Source of the DNA: Armatimonadetes bacterium Uphvl-Ar2 | GTDB taxonomy: Bacteria > Armatimonadota > Fimbriimonadia > Fimbriimonadales > Fimbriimonadaceae | Assembly: GCA_002162095.1 (NCBI GenBank) | Contig: CP021424.1 | Coordinates: forward strand, 62,001 to 126,000 | Length of the DNA: 64,000 bases | Reading direction: 5' to 3' | Part shown: in pieces, positions 18,362-23,439 of the stretch | How positions within the stretch are numbered: the first letter of the stretch is position 1 | Layout: the number at the start of each line of letters is the position of its first letter | The notes under the pieces: model-generated | Told to the model about the DNA's origin: nothing | Database searches by the model: none | The model's input: only the letters and a program-made list of their open reading frames with translations | Position numbers and translations under genes: made by a program

Positions 18362-19114
18362 CTATTTTGACCCTATTTGCAAATCCCAGAGGGAAAACAC
18401 CGCTGCATGGGCCGGAAGGGGCCGGTCCAATCGGCTCTGCGCCAGCACCGCCAGGCACCGGGCAGCGGCCTGCGCCTCCTTCATTTGCGGCGGGGGCATT
18501 TCGCATTCGGCCAACCGCTTCATGCCCACCAGCGCCGCCCACGGCACGGCAAACGCATCCTTATAGTGCCCGGCAAACTCGTGCTGCAAGGCACCGCCGG
18601 CGGTGGCACTAACATCGGCCGGGTCGCTCGTGATGCGTTCGCCGCTGACGGCGCAGGCCGTCCAGTCCGGCCACTCCCCTTCCCACACCAGCAGCCCGAC
18701 GTGGATCCAGGCCAGCACCACGGCGGGGTTGTTCGATTCACCCAGGGCTTCCAGGGCGCGCACCAAGAGATCGTAGATATCCTCGCAGGGGCTATCCGCG
18801 GGCACGGTCTGGTCGATGATCTCGGCGATGGCCAACCCCACGCTCAGGCGTTCGTAGTCTTCCCTGAGCCGACGAAACGACGTGAGGGGCTGGCACTGGG
18901 TGACAAACTGGCGCACTTTGCCCTTGGCCCAGGTGTACCGGGCTTGGGTGAGGGGCTCACTGGCCCCGGCGAGGCGGGAACCGCTTTTGCGCGCGCCCCG
19001 GGCGACCAAATAGGTTTTGCCGAAATCACGGGTGAGGATAACAAGCGAGCGGTCGGATTCTTGCGAATCCGACCGCCGAATGACGATCCCTTCCGAGGTG
19101 ACCTCGAGTGACAC
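18362..19114 (-). CDS. recO: DNA repair protein RecO
   Basis: Recombination mediator of the RecFOR pathway that loads RecA on SSB-coated single-stranded DNA. The protein (about 250 residues from GTG 19114) starts SLEVTSEGIVIRRSD, matching the OB-fold start of RecO, followed by LVILTRDFGKTYLVARGARKSGSRLAG and the helical C-terminal part. Only Cys residues at scattered positions are seen in the C-terminal part, not an obvious four-Cys zinc cluster. I placed the start at GTG 19114, 4 bases after the stop of the preceding membrane gene, because the longer frame reads back into that gene. Confidence 0.85.
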   Translation of the reverse strand: MSLEVTSEGIVIRRSDSQESDRSLVILTRDFGKTYLVARGARKSGSRLAGASEPLTQARYTWAKGKVRQFVTQCQPLTSFRRLREDYERLSVGLAIAEIIDQTVPADSPCEDIYDLLVRALEALGESNNPAVVLAWIHVGLLVWEGEWPDWTACAVSGERITSDPADVSATAGGALQHEFAGHYKDAFAVPWAALVGMKRLAECEMPPPQMKEAQAAARCLAVLAQSRLDRPLPAHAAVFSLWDLQIGSK

Positions 19115-19118
19115 CGCG

Positions 19119-19874
19119 TTAGACGCCGAGCTTGAGCCAGTCTTGCCAGATGTAGGCGAGACGGTCGATAACCAGTGCGAAGCGCGCCATGACCGTGGAA
19201 CCAAAGATGGCCCCAAAGCCGATCATCAGCATCCAGCGCCCCAGCTTGTTGAAGCCCATCAAGGCCTTGCCCTTAATGTCCACGCTGAAGAGGAAGTAGG
19301 CGAGCGCGCTCAGCAACGTAACCAAGAAGATCAGGTTGTTGATGGCTTCCGTCGGATACAGATTCGCGAGAATCTGCACCGCATTGGCCTTCTGTTCGAT
19401 GCGACCGTTGACGAGTTGCGTCGTCGGCACGGCAAAGAACGAGTCGGTGGCCGTCGGAATCAGGGGCACCATGGAGGCCTCGATCATCGGACCGAACTTG
19501 TTCCAGTAGATTTGAATCTGCTGACCCGACCAAAGGCCCAGAATGATGCCGATGGGGATGCGGCTCATCCAGCTCTTCTCCTTGTTGAAGACCGTGTAGG
19601 CCATCAAACCAATGGGGAAAAGAAGCATGTACGGCCAGAAACCCGGCGAGTCAAACTTCCCGTCGTCTGTTAGTTTGCCCGTCATCGGCAACCACCACTG
19701 GATGTAGAGCGTGTCTTTCCATAAGCCCACGACGGCATATCCGGCGGCAAGTCCCAGGAAGATGTGCTCTACCGTGCGGTAGACCAGATTCTCTCTCCAG
19801 AGAACGGAATACAGGCCAATGATGGCCAGCGAGCCAAGCATTACGTTGATGTAAGTCAGGTTTTCTTGGTTCAC
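19119..19874 (-). CDS. Multi-pass membrane protein of the six-gene cassette (gene 6), function unknown
   Basis: A 251-residue integral membrane protein with about six hydrophobic segments: near residues 8-24, 37-52, 80-97, 106-115, 183-198 and 215-232. Residues about 120-175 form a polar loop (including EASMVPLIPTATDSFFAVPTTQLVNGRIEQ). The GTG start overlaps the preceding stop as GTGA and is preceded by a strong ribosome-binding site (GAAGGAGG), so it is coupled to the previous cassette gene. No family recognised. Its last hydrophobic segments and short cytosolic-looking C-terminus end at recO. Confidence 0.8.
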   Translation of the reverse strand: MNQENLTYINVMLGSLAIIGLYSVLWRENLVYRTVEHIFLGLAAGYAVVGLWKDTLYIQWWLPMTGKLTDDGKFDSPGFWPYMLLFPIGLMAYTVFNKEKSWMSRIPIGIILGLWSGQQIQIYWNKFGPMIEASMVPLIPTATDSFFAVPTTQLVNGRIEQKANAVQILANLYPTEAINNLIFLVTLLSALAYFLFSVDIKGKALMGFNKLGRWMLMIGFGAIFGSTVMARFALVIDRLAYIWQDWLKLGV

Positions 19875-20833
19875 TTGGTGCCTCCTTCAAGCTTCTTCTT
19901 GGCGATCATGCCCACGTTACCGAGCGCAATGGCCAGGATCATGAGCGTAAGCGCAATGTGCAACGCCAGGTTGTTGGTGGCCCCCTGCCCAAAGGTCGTA
20001 CCTTCAGGCACCGGCGGGATCACCTGCTCAGGCTTGGTCCGATTTTTCACGACTATGTTGCCTGCTTCATCAGCGGTGTTGATCCCGTGCTCCATCATAT
20101 ATTCGAGGTCATAAACGCCGACCAGACCGATCGTCAAACCCTTGAGCTGACCCGAGCGGTAATACGGCAGCATCCCCGGACCCATAACGCCCGTGACGAG
20201 GCCGCCCATGGTCACCTTGGTGCCCAACCGCTCGATGGCGATGTCAATGGAGTTCGAAGCGCTGACCACGTAGTAAGCACCACAGTCCTCGATCTTGGTG
20301 ACTCCCTGCAGAACCGGGCTATCGAACACCGGGCGCTCACGGCCCGTGCTGTCCTTCGCGCGTCGCCCGCCCCACGCCGACTTGATACTGTTGCTGAAGG
20401 CGTTCAGGCTGTTCTCGGCGTTCGGGAAGAGGCCGAGATCAAGGTAGTCGTCCCACGGTTTGTATTCGCGCAGGCCCTGCTTCTTTCGCTCTTGATTAAT
20501 AGTGCGGATCGCATCGCGCGCCACCTGCGGGGCTTGGGGGTCCGCCACACTATAGAACACGAACTTGCGGTTTGTGGCCATGAGCGAGCGCACGAGACCC
20601 TGGAAGTGCCCCCGGCTTTCCCCCCGAGTGGAGTTCGTCCAATCGCTTTGAATGAAAACCGGCTTGTTCGGGTCCGAAGTCATCATGACCGCATAAAGGT
20701 CCATCGAGTTGGAATCAGGAATCTGAGGTAGCGCCTTCTTGAGGCCGATCAGGGTTGCTGAAAGGCTGACGACAAGCACCAAGAACAAGTACTCGCGCTT
20801 GATCTTCTGCGCGTCGGCAAGTAACTTCCACAT
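19871..20833 (-). CDS. Membrane protein with large soluble alpha/beta-like domain (cassette gene 5), function unknown
   Basis: A 320-residue protein with an N-terminal TM helix (YLFLVLVVSLSATLIGL, about 15-31), a long soluble domain (about 40-285) and a C-terminal TM helix (LALHIALTLMILAIALG). The soluble part contains beta-helix alternation such as DPNKPVFIQSDWTNSTRGES and LMATNRKFVFYSV, and a later CGAYYVVSASNSIDIAIERLG, suggesting an open alpha/beta fold. This TM-domain-TM plan resembles that of cassette gene 3. The start forms TAATG with the upstream stop. No family recognised. Confidence 0.8.
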   Translation of the reverse strand: MWKLLADAQKIKREYLFLVLVVSLSATLIGLKKALPQIPDSNSMDLYAVMMTSDPNKPVFIQSDWTNSTRGESRGHFQGLVRSLMATNRKFVFYSVADPQAPQVARDAIRTINQERKKQGLREYKPWDDYLDLGLFPNAENSLNAFSNSIKSAWGGRRAKDSTGRERPVFDSPVLQGVTKIEDCGAYYVVSASNSIDIAIERLGTKVTMGGLVTGVMGPGMLPYYRSGQLKGLTIGLVGVYDLEYMMEHGINTADEAGNIVVKNRTKPEQVIPPVPEGTTFGQGATNNLALHIALTLMILAIALGNVGMIAKKKLEGGTK

Positions 20834-21744
20834 TATTCCGTCACTCCACCGCGTTCAAGGCCGAGCCAAAGGCGAAGCGCCATGGCCAAGGTGCCGAGAC
20901 CGACCCCAAACTCAAGGGCCTGGAGCGCCGGGACCTGAACCATATTCCTCAGCCAGCCGGCCAGCTCATTAAGTTTCAAGTTATTCAGCAAGTTGGCTGG
21001 GTTTGATCCTGTCATGTTATCAATCGTCCCGTTCCACCCAGAGGTCACTGCCCCCATGAGGGAGAGCATGACGATCAGCGCACTCGACATGAGAAGCGTG
21101 GCTTCCATCGACCGAATGCGGAACGCCCGGTAGGCGGCACTGAAGATATAGAACGCGATGATGGAGAACATCGCGGCGTCCATGTTTTGCAGCAAGCCTT
21201 CGAACAGGATGTTGAACACCACGTTGACGTTGGTCCACGTCGTGGTGTCGTCGGTGATCTTCTCCTTGATCCAAAACTCGCGCTGGAGCCAGTCCGCGTA
21301 ACCCACGGCGATCATAAGTGCCATGCAAACCAGCAGAAGCACGCTGAACTGCCAGTCCTTTTGCTTGCGAGTGATCTTGGTGAAGTGCACCCGCAGGAGC
21401 GAGAACATCCCGAGACCCAGCAGGAACGAAGTTACGACCTGGGCAATCCCGCTCACGAACGGGACCGAGGTTTGGAGCCACTGACCCGTCTTCTCGACAA
21501 ACCCATTCGGCAATTCGTTTTCGCGCAAGGCGATCGGCTCTGGCCACAGGTAGCGCAGCACCCAGAAAAGACCGGCCAAGAAGGTCACACCCACCACAAT
21601 CGGGCGGCGCGCACTGTGCGGCACCTTGCTGAGCGCAAAGAACAGCACCATGCCGGCGATGAACACCCCGACCAAAACGCCATAGCGGCCGTTATCCTGG
21701 GGGTTGAGGGTCCACCAGGTCGGCTGATAAGCTAGCAGATTCAT
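20833..21744 (-). CDS. Multi-pass membrane protein (cassette gene 4), function unknown
   Basis: A 303-residue integral membrane protein with about seven hydrophobic segments, spread from residue 25 to the C-terminus (for example YGVLVGVFIAGMVLFFAL, IVVGVTFLAGLFWVLRYLW, VSGIAQVVTSFLLGLGMFSLL, FSVLLLVCMALMIAVG). A basic loop HFTKITRKQKDWQ lies between two of them. ATG 21744 shares its A with the upstream TGA (TGATG) and has a GAGGTG upstream; a GTG one codon earlier is possible. The tight spacing on both sides shows co-translation with genes 3 and 5. Confidence 0.8.
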   Translation of the reverse strand: MNLLAYQPTWWTLNPQDNGRYGVLVGVFIAGMVLFFALSKVPHSARRPIVVGVTFLAGLFWVLRYLWPEPIALRENELPNGFVEKTGQWLQTSVPFVSGIAQVVTSFLLGLGMFSLLRVHFTKITRKQKDWQFSVLLLVCMALMIAVGYADWLQREFWIKEKITDDTTTWTNVNVVFNILFEGLLQNMDAAMFSIIAFYIFSAAYRAFRIRSMEATLLMSSALIVMLSLMGAVTSGWNGTIDNMTGSNPANLLNNLKLNELAGWLRNMVQVPALQALEFGVGLGTLAMALRLWLGLERGGVTE

Positions 21745-22721
21745 CACAGGGTCACCTCGCCGCCCTCAGCCGGGGCGGGTTCCGGATTTTCCTCCGGCTT
21801 GGGCTGTCGCTCAATCTGATACATCGATTCGGTGTACATGGGGTGGAACAGCCGGTAAATCGTGGTCTCCGTCGCGTTCTTCTTGCGAGGTTCCCCTTCG
21901 TAGGGCACCATTTCAGCCACGGATTCTTGCCCGCCACGGACTTCCACAGTGGATTCCTGTCGGGTCATGGTGACCATTTGATTTCGCTCGACAGAGTTCA
22001 TCAGCATCCCGGCGAAGATGCTGCCAATGATCAGCATCTTGCCCCAGTCTTGGCCGAGCAGCGAACCGACCAACACCGGCTGGCGCGTGATGTACGCGCT
22101 CGCGGCATAGAATTCGTCGCCAATCAATACGTAGTCGCAGGCCGCAATGAAGAACGGGGTTTGCGTGTTCTGCGTGGAACCGGCCACCTGAATGGCGCCA
22201 ATGCTGTTCGCCGATTCGGCAAAGATCAGAGACTCGGCGTAGAACGCACCCAATAGGAACGTCGCGGCTACCTTTTCGCGCAGGATCATCCCCTGCACCC
22301 CGGCGGCAAACGCAAACTGACGGTCGCTCACAAACTGCACCGTCTGGGCGTCCATTCTCTCCGGCACGCCTTCTTGCTGGTACACGTCGCGAATGACTTC
22401 TTGCGCCACCGTATAAACGGCCGCATCCGCGCAGCAAAGTCGAATCGGGGTCGAAAACTGGGCAGCGGTGCGGGCGACGTTCGAGAAGATCGTTACGGCC
22501 TGCACCGAAACCGCGTCGAGACCACCAATGCCCGGAACCATCAGCACGGGTCGGCCCATTTCGGTGGCCCGCCCAATCGCGTCATCCAGGGCGTTCAAGC
22601 CCGGAATCCTGCGAATGAACAGATCCGTTCGGTTCTTGGCACGGGCGATATTGAAAAGAATAAAGGCGACGATCAAGAGCGTCACCAAGATTCCCAATTT
22701 GCCGGAGTCTAAATATTGCAT
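21744..22721 (-). CDS. Membrane protein resembling the DUF6754 group (cassette gene 3)
   Basis: A 325-residue protein: one N-terminal TM helix (ILVTLLIVAFILFNIARA), then a distinctive segment RRIPGLNALDDAIGRATEMGRPVLMVPG, an alpha/beta-like domain, a late hydrophobic segment (MLIIGSIFAGMLMNSV, about 235) and a charged, proline-rich tail. The RIPGL...GRATEMGRPV segment is what I recall from uncharacterised membrane proteins catalogued as DUF6754 in Chloroflexota and related phyla; I am moderately sure of the family number and have no function for it. A further motif, AFYAESLIFAESANSIGAIQVAGST, is probably part of a conserved core. Confidence 0.75.
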   Translation of the reverse strand: MQYLDSGKLGILVTLLIVAFILFNIARAKNRTDLFIRRIPGLNALDDAIGRATEMGRPVLMVPGIGGLDAVSVQAVTIFSNVARTAAQFSTPIRLCCADAAVYTVAQEVIRDVYQQEGVPERMDAQTVQFVSDRQFAFAAGVQGMILREKVAATFLLGAFYAESLIFAESANSIGAIQVAGSTQNTQTPFFIAACDYVLIGDEFYAASAYITRQPVLVGSLLGQDWGKMLIIGSIFAGMLMNSVERNQMVTMTRQESTVEVRGGQESVAEMVPYEGEPRKKNATETTIYRLFHPMYTESMYQIERQPKPEENPEPAPAEGGEVTL

Positions 22722-22724
22722 GGC

Positions 22725-23018
22725 TTAGTCTGTGCGAGCCTCAGCGCTCGTTTCCAATCGACGAATCAACGATTCAACGGCCGTTGGGCTCTTGGCCAAC
22801 CGCGAGAAGCCCTGGATCCGATCCAGCCCCATGAAGGGACCGAGGAACGGGGTGAAGGCGATCATCGCTTGGCTGGCAATTCCCATCAACGGTCGGTGCA
22901 TCTCTAAGAACAAGACGGCGGGGACCTGCAAACGTCGCTTTTCCACTTCGGTCGCCACCTTTTCAATCAAGGTCGCTTCCTCCTCCGGAGTCAGGTCTTC
23001 GTTCCAGGTTTCCCACAT
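22725..23018 (-). CDS. Small conserved-looking protein (cassette gene 2), function unknown
   Basis: A 97-residue protein with an acidic helical N-terminus (LTPEEEATLIEKVATEVEKRR) and a hydrophobic centre (VPAVLFLEMHRPLMGIASQAMIAFTPFLGPFMG) that may insert into or lie on the membrane, followed by a polar C-terminal helix. Its first 56 bases overlap the end of cassette gene 1 in another frame, and its stop is 3 bases before cassette gene 3. I recognise no family. Confidence 0.7.
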   Translation of the reverse strand: MWETWNEDLTPEEEATLIEKVATEVEKRRLQVPAVLFLEMHRPLMGIASQAMIAFTPFLGPFMGLDRIQGFSRLAKSPTAVESLIRRLETSAEARTD

Positions 23019-23439
23019 AGTCGTGAACGTGGTCGCTTATTTTGGCCAATACGGCCTCTCGGTTGCTTGCAAATCGCAAAGAAACTCCACGAAATGCGTC
23101 CAATCGGGTGGGCTTTTCGAGCGGAGAAAGCCGTACCGCTCGTTCTGAGACCTCCACGCGCTTGACGTTCTCCCACAACATGAGCGTTTCGGCGAAGCCC
23201 ACCTTGCGGCTGGCCCCCTCCCCGTCCAGCCGATACTTGATCGGGAAAAAGGCCTCGATGCTGCTCCCCAGCACGATGACAGCTCCCAAAATGCCGGCCA
23301 GTGGGCTTTGCATCCGGTAGAGCCCAAAGAAAAACGCCCCTACCGCCACCAGGGCGATGACGTACTTGGCCCCCGGCCGATGCGCCGTGGCATCCACCGA
23401 CCAAGTCAGCGTTTCCGAGGGGGTTTCCGGGGTACTCAA
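22963..23439 (-). CDS. Two-TM membrane protein with PH-like tail (cassette gene 1), function unknown
   Basis: A 158-residue protein with two hydrophobic segments (YVIALVAVGAFFFGLY and GILGAVIVLGSSIEAFF, about 26-65) and a beta-rich tail: the IKYRLDGEGASRKVGFAETLMLWENVKRVEVSERAV stretch resembles bacterial PH-like domains following two TM helices. The TTG start at 23439 is next to the prs stop, so the exact N-terminus is uncertain. It is the first gene of the membrane cassette and follows prs directly. Confidence 0.7.
   Translation of the reverse strand: MSTPETPSETLTWSVDATAHRPGAKYVIALVAVGAFFFGLYRMQSPLAGILGAVIVLGSSIEAFFPIKYRLDGEGASRKVGFAETLMLWENVKRVEVSERAVRLSPLEKPTRLDAFRGVSLRFASNREAVLAKISDHVHDYVGNLERRPDSGGGSDLD

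Follow-up and report, generated by a model that had tools for sequence, protein, structure and literature searches.

Six consecutive open reading frames (ORFs), here called p1 to p6, lie on the minus strand between prs and recO in the 64,000-nucleotide stretch of Armatimonadetes bacterium Uphvl-Ar2 DNA that we analysed (contig CP021424.1, positions 62,001 to 126,000; hereafter the window), with positions, lengths, strand and junctions as the first-pass annotation of this DNA had given them. We present evidence that, with two partner genes termed M and B, they very probably make up one widely conserved system of eight components, of which p1 to p6 would be the membrane part. The six genes, in window positions, are:

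22963 to 23439, minus strand: p1, 158 aa, TTG start; protein with two transmembrane (TM) helices and a probable C-terminal bacterial PH-like domain
22725 to 23018, minus strand: p2, 97 aa; small conserved protein, TM helices absent by hydropathy
21744 to 22721, minus strand: p3, 325 aa; DUF6754 protein, predicted TM helix, cytoplasmic Rossmann-like domain, TM helix
20833 to 21747, minus strand: p4, 304 aa from a GTG start, or 303 aa from the ATG within TGATG; polytopic
19871 to 20833, minus strand: p5, 320 aa; predicted TM helix, extracytoplasmic Rossmann-like domain, TM helix
19119 to 19874, minus strand: p6, 251 aa; polytopic membrane protein

Sequence features of the cassette

The genes are tightly packed, with spacings (negative values are overlaps) of +1 base for prs-p1, -56 for p1-p2, +3 for p2-p3, -4 for p3-p4 (-1 from the ATG), -1 for p4-p5, -4 for p5-p6 and +4 for p6-recO, where recO starts with a GTG at 19114; NCBIfam profiles confirmed the identities of the flanking glmU, prs and recO. 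Because the ratio of non-synonymous to synonymous changes (pN/pS) is 0.04-0.20 for each of p1 to p6 against the nearest relative (L002), indicating purifying selection, we regard all six as real genes. In this same relative, whose p3 is 97% identical to that of the window, p5 is broken into two overlapping frames (L002:7889-8714), and synonymous divergence (dS) from the window, about 0.35 in p1 to p3, climbs to 1.3 in p5, through a frameshift or an assembly error and perhaps recombination.

By hydropathy, p1 has two TM helices, p2 none, p3 one that is clear, p4 about six, p5 two and p6 at least three, so that the products were rightly described as mostly membrane proteins, five of the six being such and p2 the exception, and p4 (303 residues) and p6 (251 residues) are polytopic as had been proposed. 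It had likewise been anticipated that p3 alone would resemble a catalogued domain, and p3 was indeed the sole protein among the six with a Pfam or NCBIfam match over cut-off, as a clear member of DUF6754 (PF20539; E 6.9e-91, 304.4 bits, Pfam cut-off 27); the Pfam entry assigns this domain no function and holds neither the eight-gene system nor the Rossmann-like fold and topology described below. The window sequences of p1, p2, p4, p5 and p6 gave no match over cut-off in either collection, and scanning family members singly against Pfam contributed nothing beyond weak matches of p1 to a bacterial PH domain (bPH_6, in 7 of 50 members and at E 7e-4 at best, window p1 itself without one), suggesting that its C-terminal domain is probably PH-like. 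Several families show conserved features: p1 is conserved across 80 ORFs in the loci retrieved, p2 carries the motif P-A-I-L-F-L-E-x-H-K-P-L, p4 has invariant R207 and R210 with near-invariant E215 and H121, and p6 has invariant E36 and R231 with near-invariant H37.

Predicted folds and topology of p3 and p5

The first-pass annotation had assigned p3 and p5 a shared plan of TM helix, soluble domain and TM helix, and this plan was upheld by AlphaFold2 models of high confidence (predicted local distance difference test, pLDDT, 93.5 for p3 and 95.8 for p5), in both of which a TM helix leads into a domain of alternating strands and helices that is closed by a last TM helix, the order of elements being the same apart from an insertion in p5. 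The matching order had raised the idea that p3 and p5 are homologues, which profile comparison left unsupported (hhalign P 0.01-0.05 with or without predicted secondary structure, controls scoring as well); we therefore claim only a similar predicted topology. A charge-bias (positive-inside) test on 107-114 homologues showed that Lys and Arg are richer after the first TM helix of p3 in 108 of 114 sequences, and that in p5 they are richer before the first TM helix (94 of 107) and after the last one (87 of 102). Models and charge bias together place a predicted Rossmann-like domain between the membrane helices of each protein, cytoplasmic in p3 and extracytoplasmic in p5, that is, on opposite sides of the membrane.

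Outside Fimbriimonadales p3 can carry N-terminal extensions (for example L084:7903-9822 and L076:5539-6777), which are frequent and long in families f36-f45 and which in the p3 of the Poribacteria locus L076 include a fibronectin type III match (E 2e-4); such a fibronectin-type extension agrees with the topology assigned to p3. Foldseek searches with the p3 model returned RCK domains as best matches, namely those of MthK (E 7.6e-4) and KtrA (target template modelling (TM) score 0.62, probability 1.00), with query TM scores of only 0.33-0.34 and intermixed with many unrelated Rossmann enzymes, while p5 had no significant match in the PDB or BFVD.

Conserved gene order and the partners M and B

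With each species represented by one genome, a search yielded 349 relatives of p3, and the loci of the best 80 of these were read and annotated with profiles built from the window genes. The order p1-p2-p3-p4-p5-p6 occurs in 57 of the 80 loci retrieved, and the form framed by prs and recO in 31 loci (window included); the order recurs in most other sufficiently long Armatimonadota loci, and the core p3-p4-p5-p6 is found in the Poribacteria loci. Loci from many further Armatimonadota families showed the same order, some with two tandem p3 genes, so the expectation that the genes recur together in other genomes was borne out across Armatimonadota families and, for the core, in Poribacteria. Such tandem DUF6754 copies within one cassette (L094:7885-9470, L095:7031-10215, L100:7506-9271) suggest that in some lineages p3 may assemble as a hetero-oligomer.

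Two genes, M and B, sit between p2 and p3 in families f36-f45. The order p1-p2-M-B-p3-p4-p5-p6 was read in L084, L089, L118, L122 and L123, and in L124 as far as p4; L121 has p1 to p6 followed by M-B, and several families have the M-B pair elsewhere than at the cassette (L115, L116, L150-L153). M, a protein of about 600-670 aa in these families, belongs to the MutL family (PF13941; E 2e-121, 406 bits for the L084 protein) and contains the motifs DCGSTTTK (28 of 31 sequences) and VDIGGATTDV (30 of 31), which we take to be the phosphate motifs of ASKHA ATPases. B, of about 375 aa, shows weak matches to Biotin_lipoyl or RnfC_N-like barrel-sandwich domains in most members. Both are also present in the genome of the window: M (PF13941, 413.6 bits) at 2,495,416-2,496,891, a long way from the cassette, which occupies 81-85 kb on the chromosome, and B (E 3e-148) outside both the window and the 16 kb around M. 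In the PDB, no significant sequence match was found for p3, p4, p5, p6, B or M.

The small protein p2, which adjoins p3 in the window, adjoins M in several Poribacteria-phylum genomes, and p1-p2-M-B are contiguous in two of them (G311, G298); since p2 was found in 38 of 40 Poribacteria-phylum genomes, all eight parts therefore occur in that phylum, in separate blocks. Thus, of the view that the six-gene set is a whole system, the six genes stand and the completeness does not, as operon order and co-retention (see below) show that M and B belong as well.

Two further observations concern the surroundings of M and B. Families f12 and f13, and no others, encode between M and B a short protein with one TM helix that is pilin-like by eye (L145:7679-8311, L147:7025-7684, L115:9828-10556; also L146, L148 and L149). 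In two Poribacteria-phylum genomes (L163:2774-8934, L164:6802-13061) p1-p2-M-B directly follow genes that read as pgk-tpiA-secG; we considered secG as a neighbour of the system and set it aside, as the arrangement was seen in these two genomes and is not general.

Near-universal retention and joint loss

The distribution of the components was determined in 194 good Armatimonadota genomes (at least 90% complete, at most 5% contaminated) and in genomes of the Poribacteria phylum. Among the former, p3 and p5 were each detected in 181 and M and B each in 183; in the latter, p3 was present in 59 of 59 genomes, M over cut-off in 28 of 30 and B in 29 of 30. The system is mostly single copy, and p3 is absent from 14 named control genomes; p3 relatives were also absent from the plasmid and viral collections searched.

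The absences coincide. The 13 genomes without p3 are the same 13 that lack p5 (as read from lists of genome handles, in which gaps in the numbering are unlisted genomes), M and B are missing from 11 each, and ten genomes (G001, G002, G003, G046, G048, G049, G051, G132, G133, G253) are without p3, p5 and B and have no M over cut-off. Treating genomes as independent, the hypergeometric probability of this co-loss is about 4e-11 for p3 with M and 2e-13 for p3 with B. The losses were placed in f6, f13, one genus of the window's family f1, and f41, and less complete genomes in f8, f10 and f22 agree with joint loss. As M lies apart from the cassette in f1, the loss of a single region cannot explain this pattern. 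Two of the ten genomes, G132 and G133, come from the window's own family and measure 1.5 Mb, yet they are 97% complete with the entire system gone; these reduced genomes might reveal what the system is for.

Taken with the order kept in deep lineages and the tight junctions, the joint loss of p3 and p5 gives good support to the proposal, made when the DNA was first annotated, that the gene products would form a stoichiometric complex in the inner membrane.

A possible mechanism and its alternatives

We infer an ATP-dependent inner-membrane complex that would handle or sense something across the membrane. In the scheme that we consider, p3 to p6 would form the complex and p1 and p2 would serve as small adaptors. 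M and B, placed in the cytosol, would bind to p3 through its cytoplasmic Rossmann-like domain; on binding or hydrolysing ATP, M would alter the state of p3, and this change would reach the external domain of p5 via the polytopic p4 and p6. The likeliest use would be energised or nucleotide-gated movement, or assembly, of an envelope component or a solute across the membrane, and such transport or assembly is our first choice because of the two polytopic subunits, the ATPase-type partner and the near-universal retention. In these particulars, with M and B acting on p3 to p6 and the change relayed to p5, the scheme is tentative and the odds are against it, whereas eight-part system and mechanism taken together, as a compromise, form the best overall explanation, to which we give about even chances.

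Several points weigh against this explanation. ATP hydrolysis by M would follow from its motifs, and what points here to a single complex is the genes themselves; p4 and p6, which lack Pfam matches over cut-off and PDB matches, bring neither a structure nor a relative to the proposal. Clustering of the outer neighbours revealed no recurrent ninth gene across families, and no outer gene hints at a pathway. The genomes counted in the hypergeometric p-values are related rather than independent, the independent joint losses numbering about four to seven. Finally, the same anatomy would also suit a sensor or a regulator.

The main rivals to transport or assembly are sensing and RCK-like gating. A transmembrane sensor or regulator, in which p5 senses outside and p3, B and M relay inside, would make use of the two alpha/beta domains on opposite membrane faces, and Rossmann-like folds commonly bind small ligands; we nevertheless consider it rather unlikely, as across families the genes come with no kinase, DNA-binding or second-messenger domain, and near-universal retention and two polytopic subunits exceed the needs of a usual sensor. 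An ion channel or transporter with a pore of p4 and p6, gated by an RCK-like domain of p3, is suggested by the top fold matches, the p3 domain having, in Foldseek, a Rossmann topology that may resemble that of the RCK/KTN domains of MthK and KtrA. However, these matches are generic to Rossmann folds, there is no sequence similarity (at E up to 1, p3 matched only PF20539 and no RCK or TrkA_N profile), p3 is membrane-anchored at both ends, the cassette has no K+ pore family, and p4 and p6 match no channel family; moreover, such gating leaves M and B unexplained, and we hold it to be unlikely.

The family of M raises the prospect of a service system for an adenosylcobalamin enzyme, with M as a GlmL-type accessory of a B12-dependent mutase and the membrane part supplying or sensing cofactor or substrate. 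Like GlmL (PF13941), the glutamate mutase accessory, M indeed has the MutL domain with both ASKHA phosphate motifs, and in NCBIfam it is related to GlmL and to the ornithine Or-4 protein. But glutamate mutase (PF06368), the adenosylcobalamin enzyme examined, is found in 0 of the 194 good genomes, and M falls below the cut-offs of the GlmL equivalog (211.8 versus 475 bits) and of glmL_fam (TIGR01319, 163.2 versus 204.05), and for these reasons we conclude that M does not serve glutamate mutase. G212, the sole genome with PF06368 over cut-off, carries, beside the 613-aa type, a second MutL protein of about 465 aa that scores much higher; M is about 130-210 aa longer than this GlmL-like copy and is encoded alongside membrane proteins, with no glutamate mutase partner, making a role of this kind improbable.

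An Rnf- or Nqr-like redox complex, suggested by the likeness of the N-terminal part of B to the barrel-sandwich domain of RnfC and NqrA, is extremely improbable: this part of B also scores weakly against Biotin_lipoyl, the RnfC_N and NQRA_N matches lie below cut-off in the first member (RnfC_N 19.3 versus 25.6 bits, NQRA_N 17.5 versus 25), the remainder of B differs, no partner family of Rnf or Nqr was matched, and p3 to p6 and B contain no invariant Cys or His, the near-invariant single residues being C195 (p3), H121 (p4) and H37 (p6). The neighbouring glmU and prs had led to the suggestion of co-expression with the synthesis of cell-wall precursors and phosphoribosyl pyrophosphate (PRPP), for which the co-directional glmU-prs-p1 to p6-recO arrangement in the genome and order of the window would speak. 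This association proved to be lineage-local, as the flanks change fully outside Fimbriimonadales and near relatives while the cassette stays intact, for example with pgk-tpiA-secG ahead of p1-p2-M-B in the Poribacteria phylum, and on synteny a cell-wall- or PRPP-linked cassette is very unlikely.

Significance of the probable eight-gene system

We found no characterised relative of the system, and our literature search, outside which most subscription journals lay, returned no paper on DUF6754 or on the gene set. Within that literature, the combination of parts is new as a system, whereas the single domains are of known kinds and the activity may yet be a variant of a known one. The proteins probably constitute an important, previously undescribed machine of the cell membrane. 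The bolder proposal, that it is an ancestral eight-part machine of the inner membrane, driven by nucleotide and belonging to the core of at least two phyla, whose ASKHA-type ATPase and barrel-sandwich protein operate a complex with Rossmann-like domains on both membrane faces, is plausible, though we judge its chances to be somewhat below even.

The eight genes now form a set that can be tested as a single unit, and the annotations of 'glutamate mutase L' in the Armatimonadota and Poribacteria phyla are put in question. A system that is present in more than nine-tenths of the good genomes of one phylum and in nearly all sampled genomes of another, and that is lost as a set, probably has a basic role, one that is probably handled otherwise, or not at all, in model bacteria.

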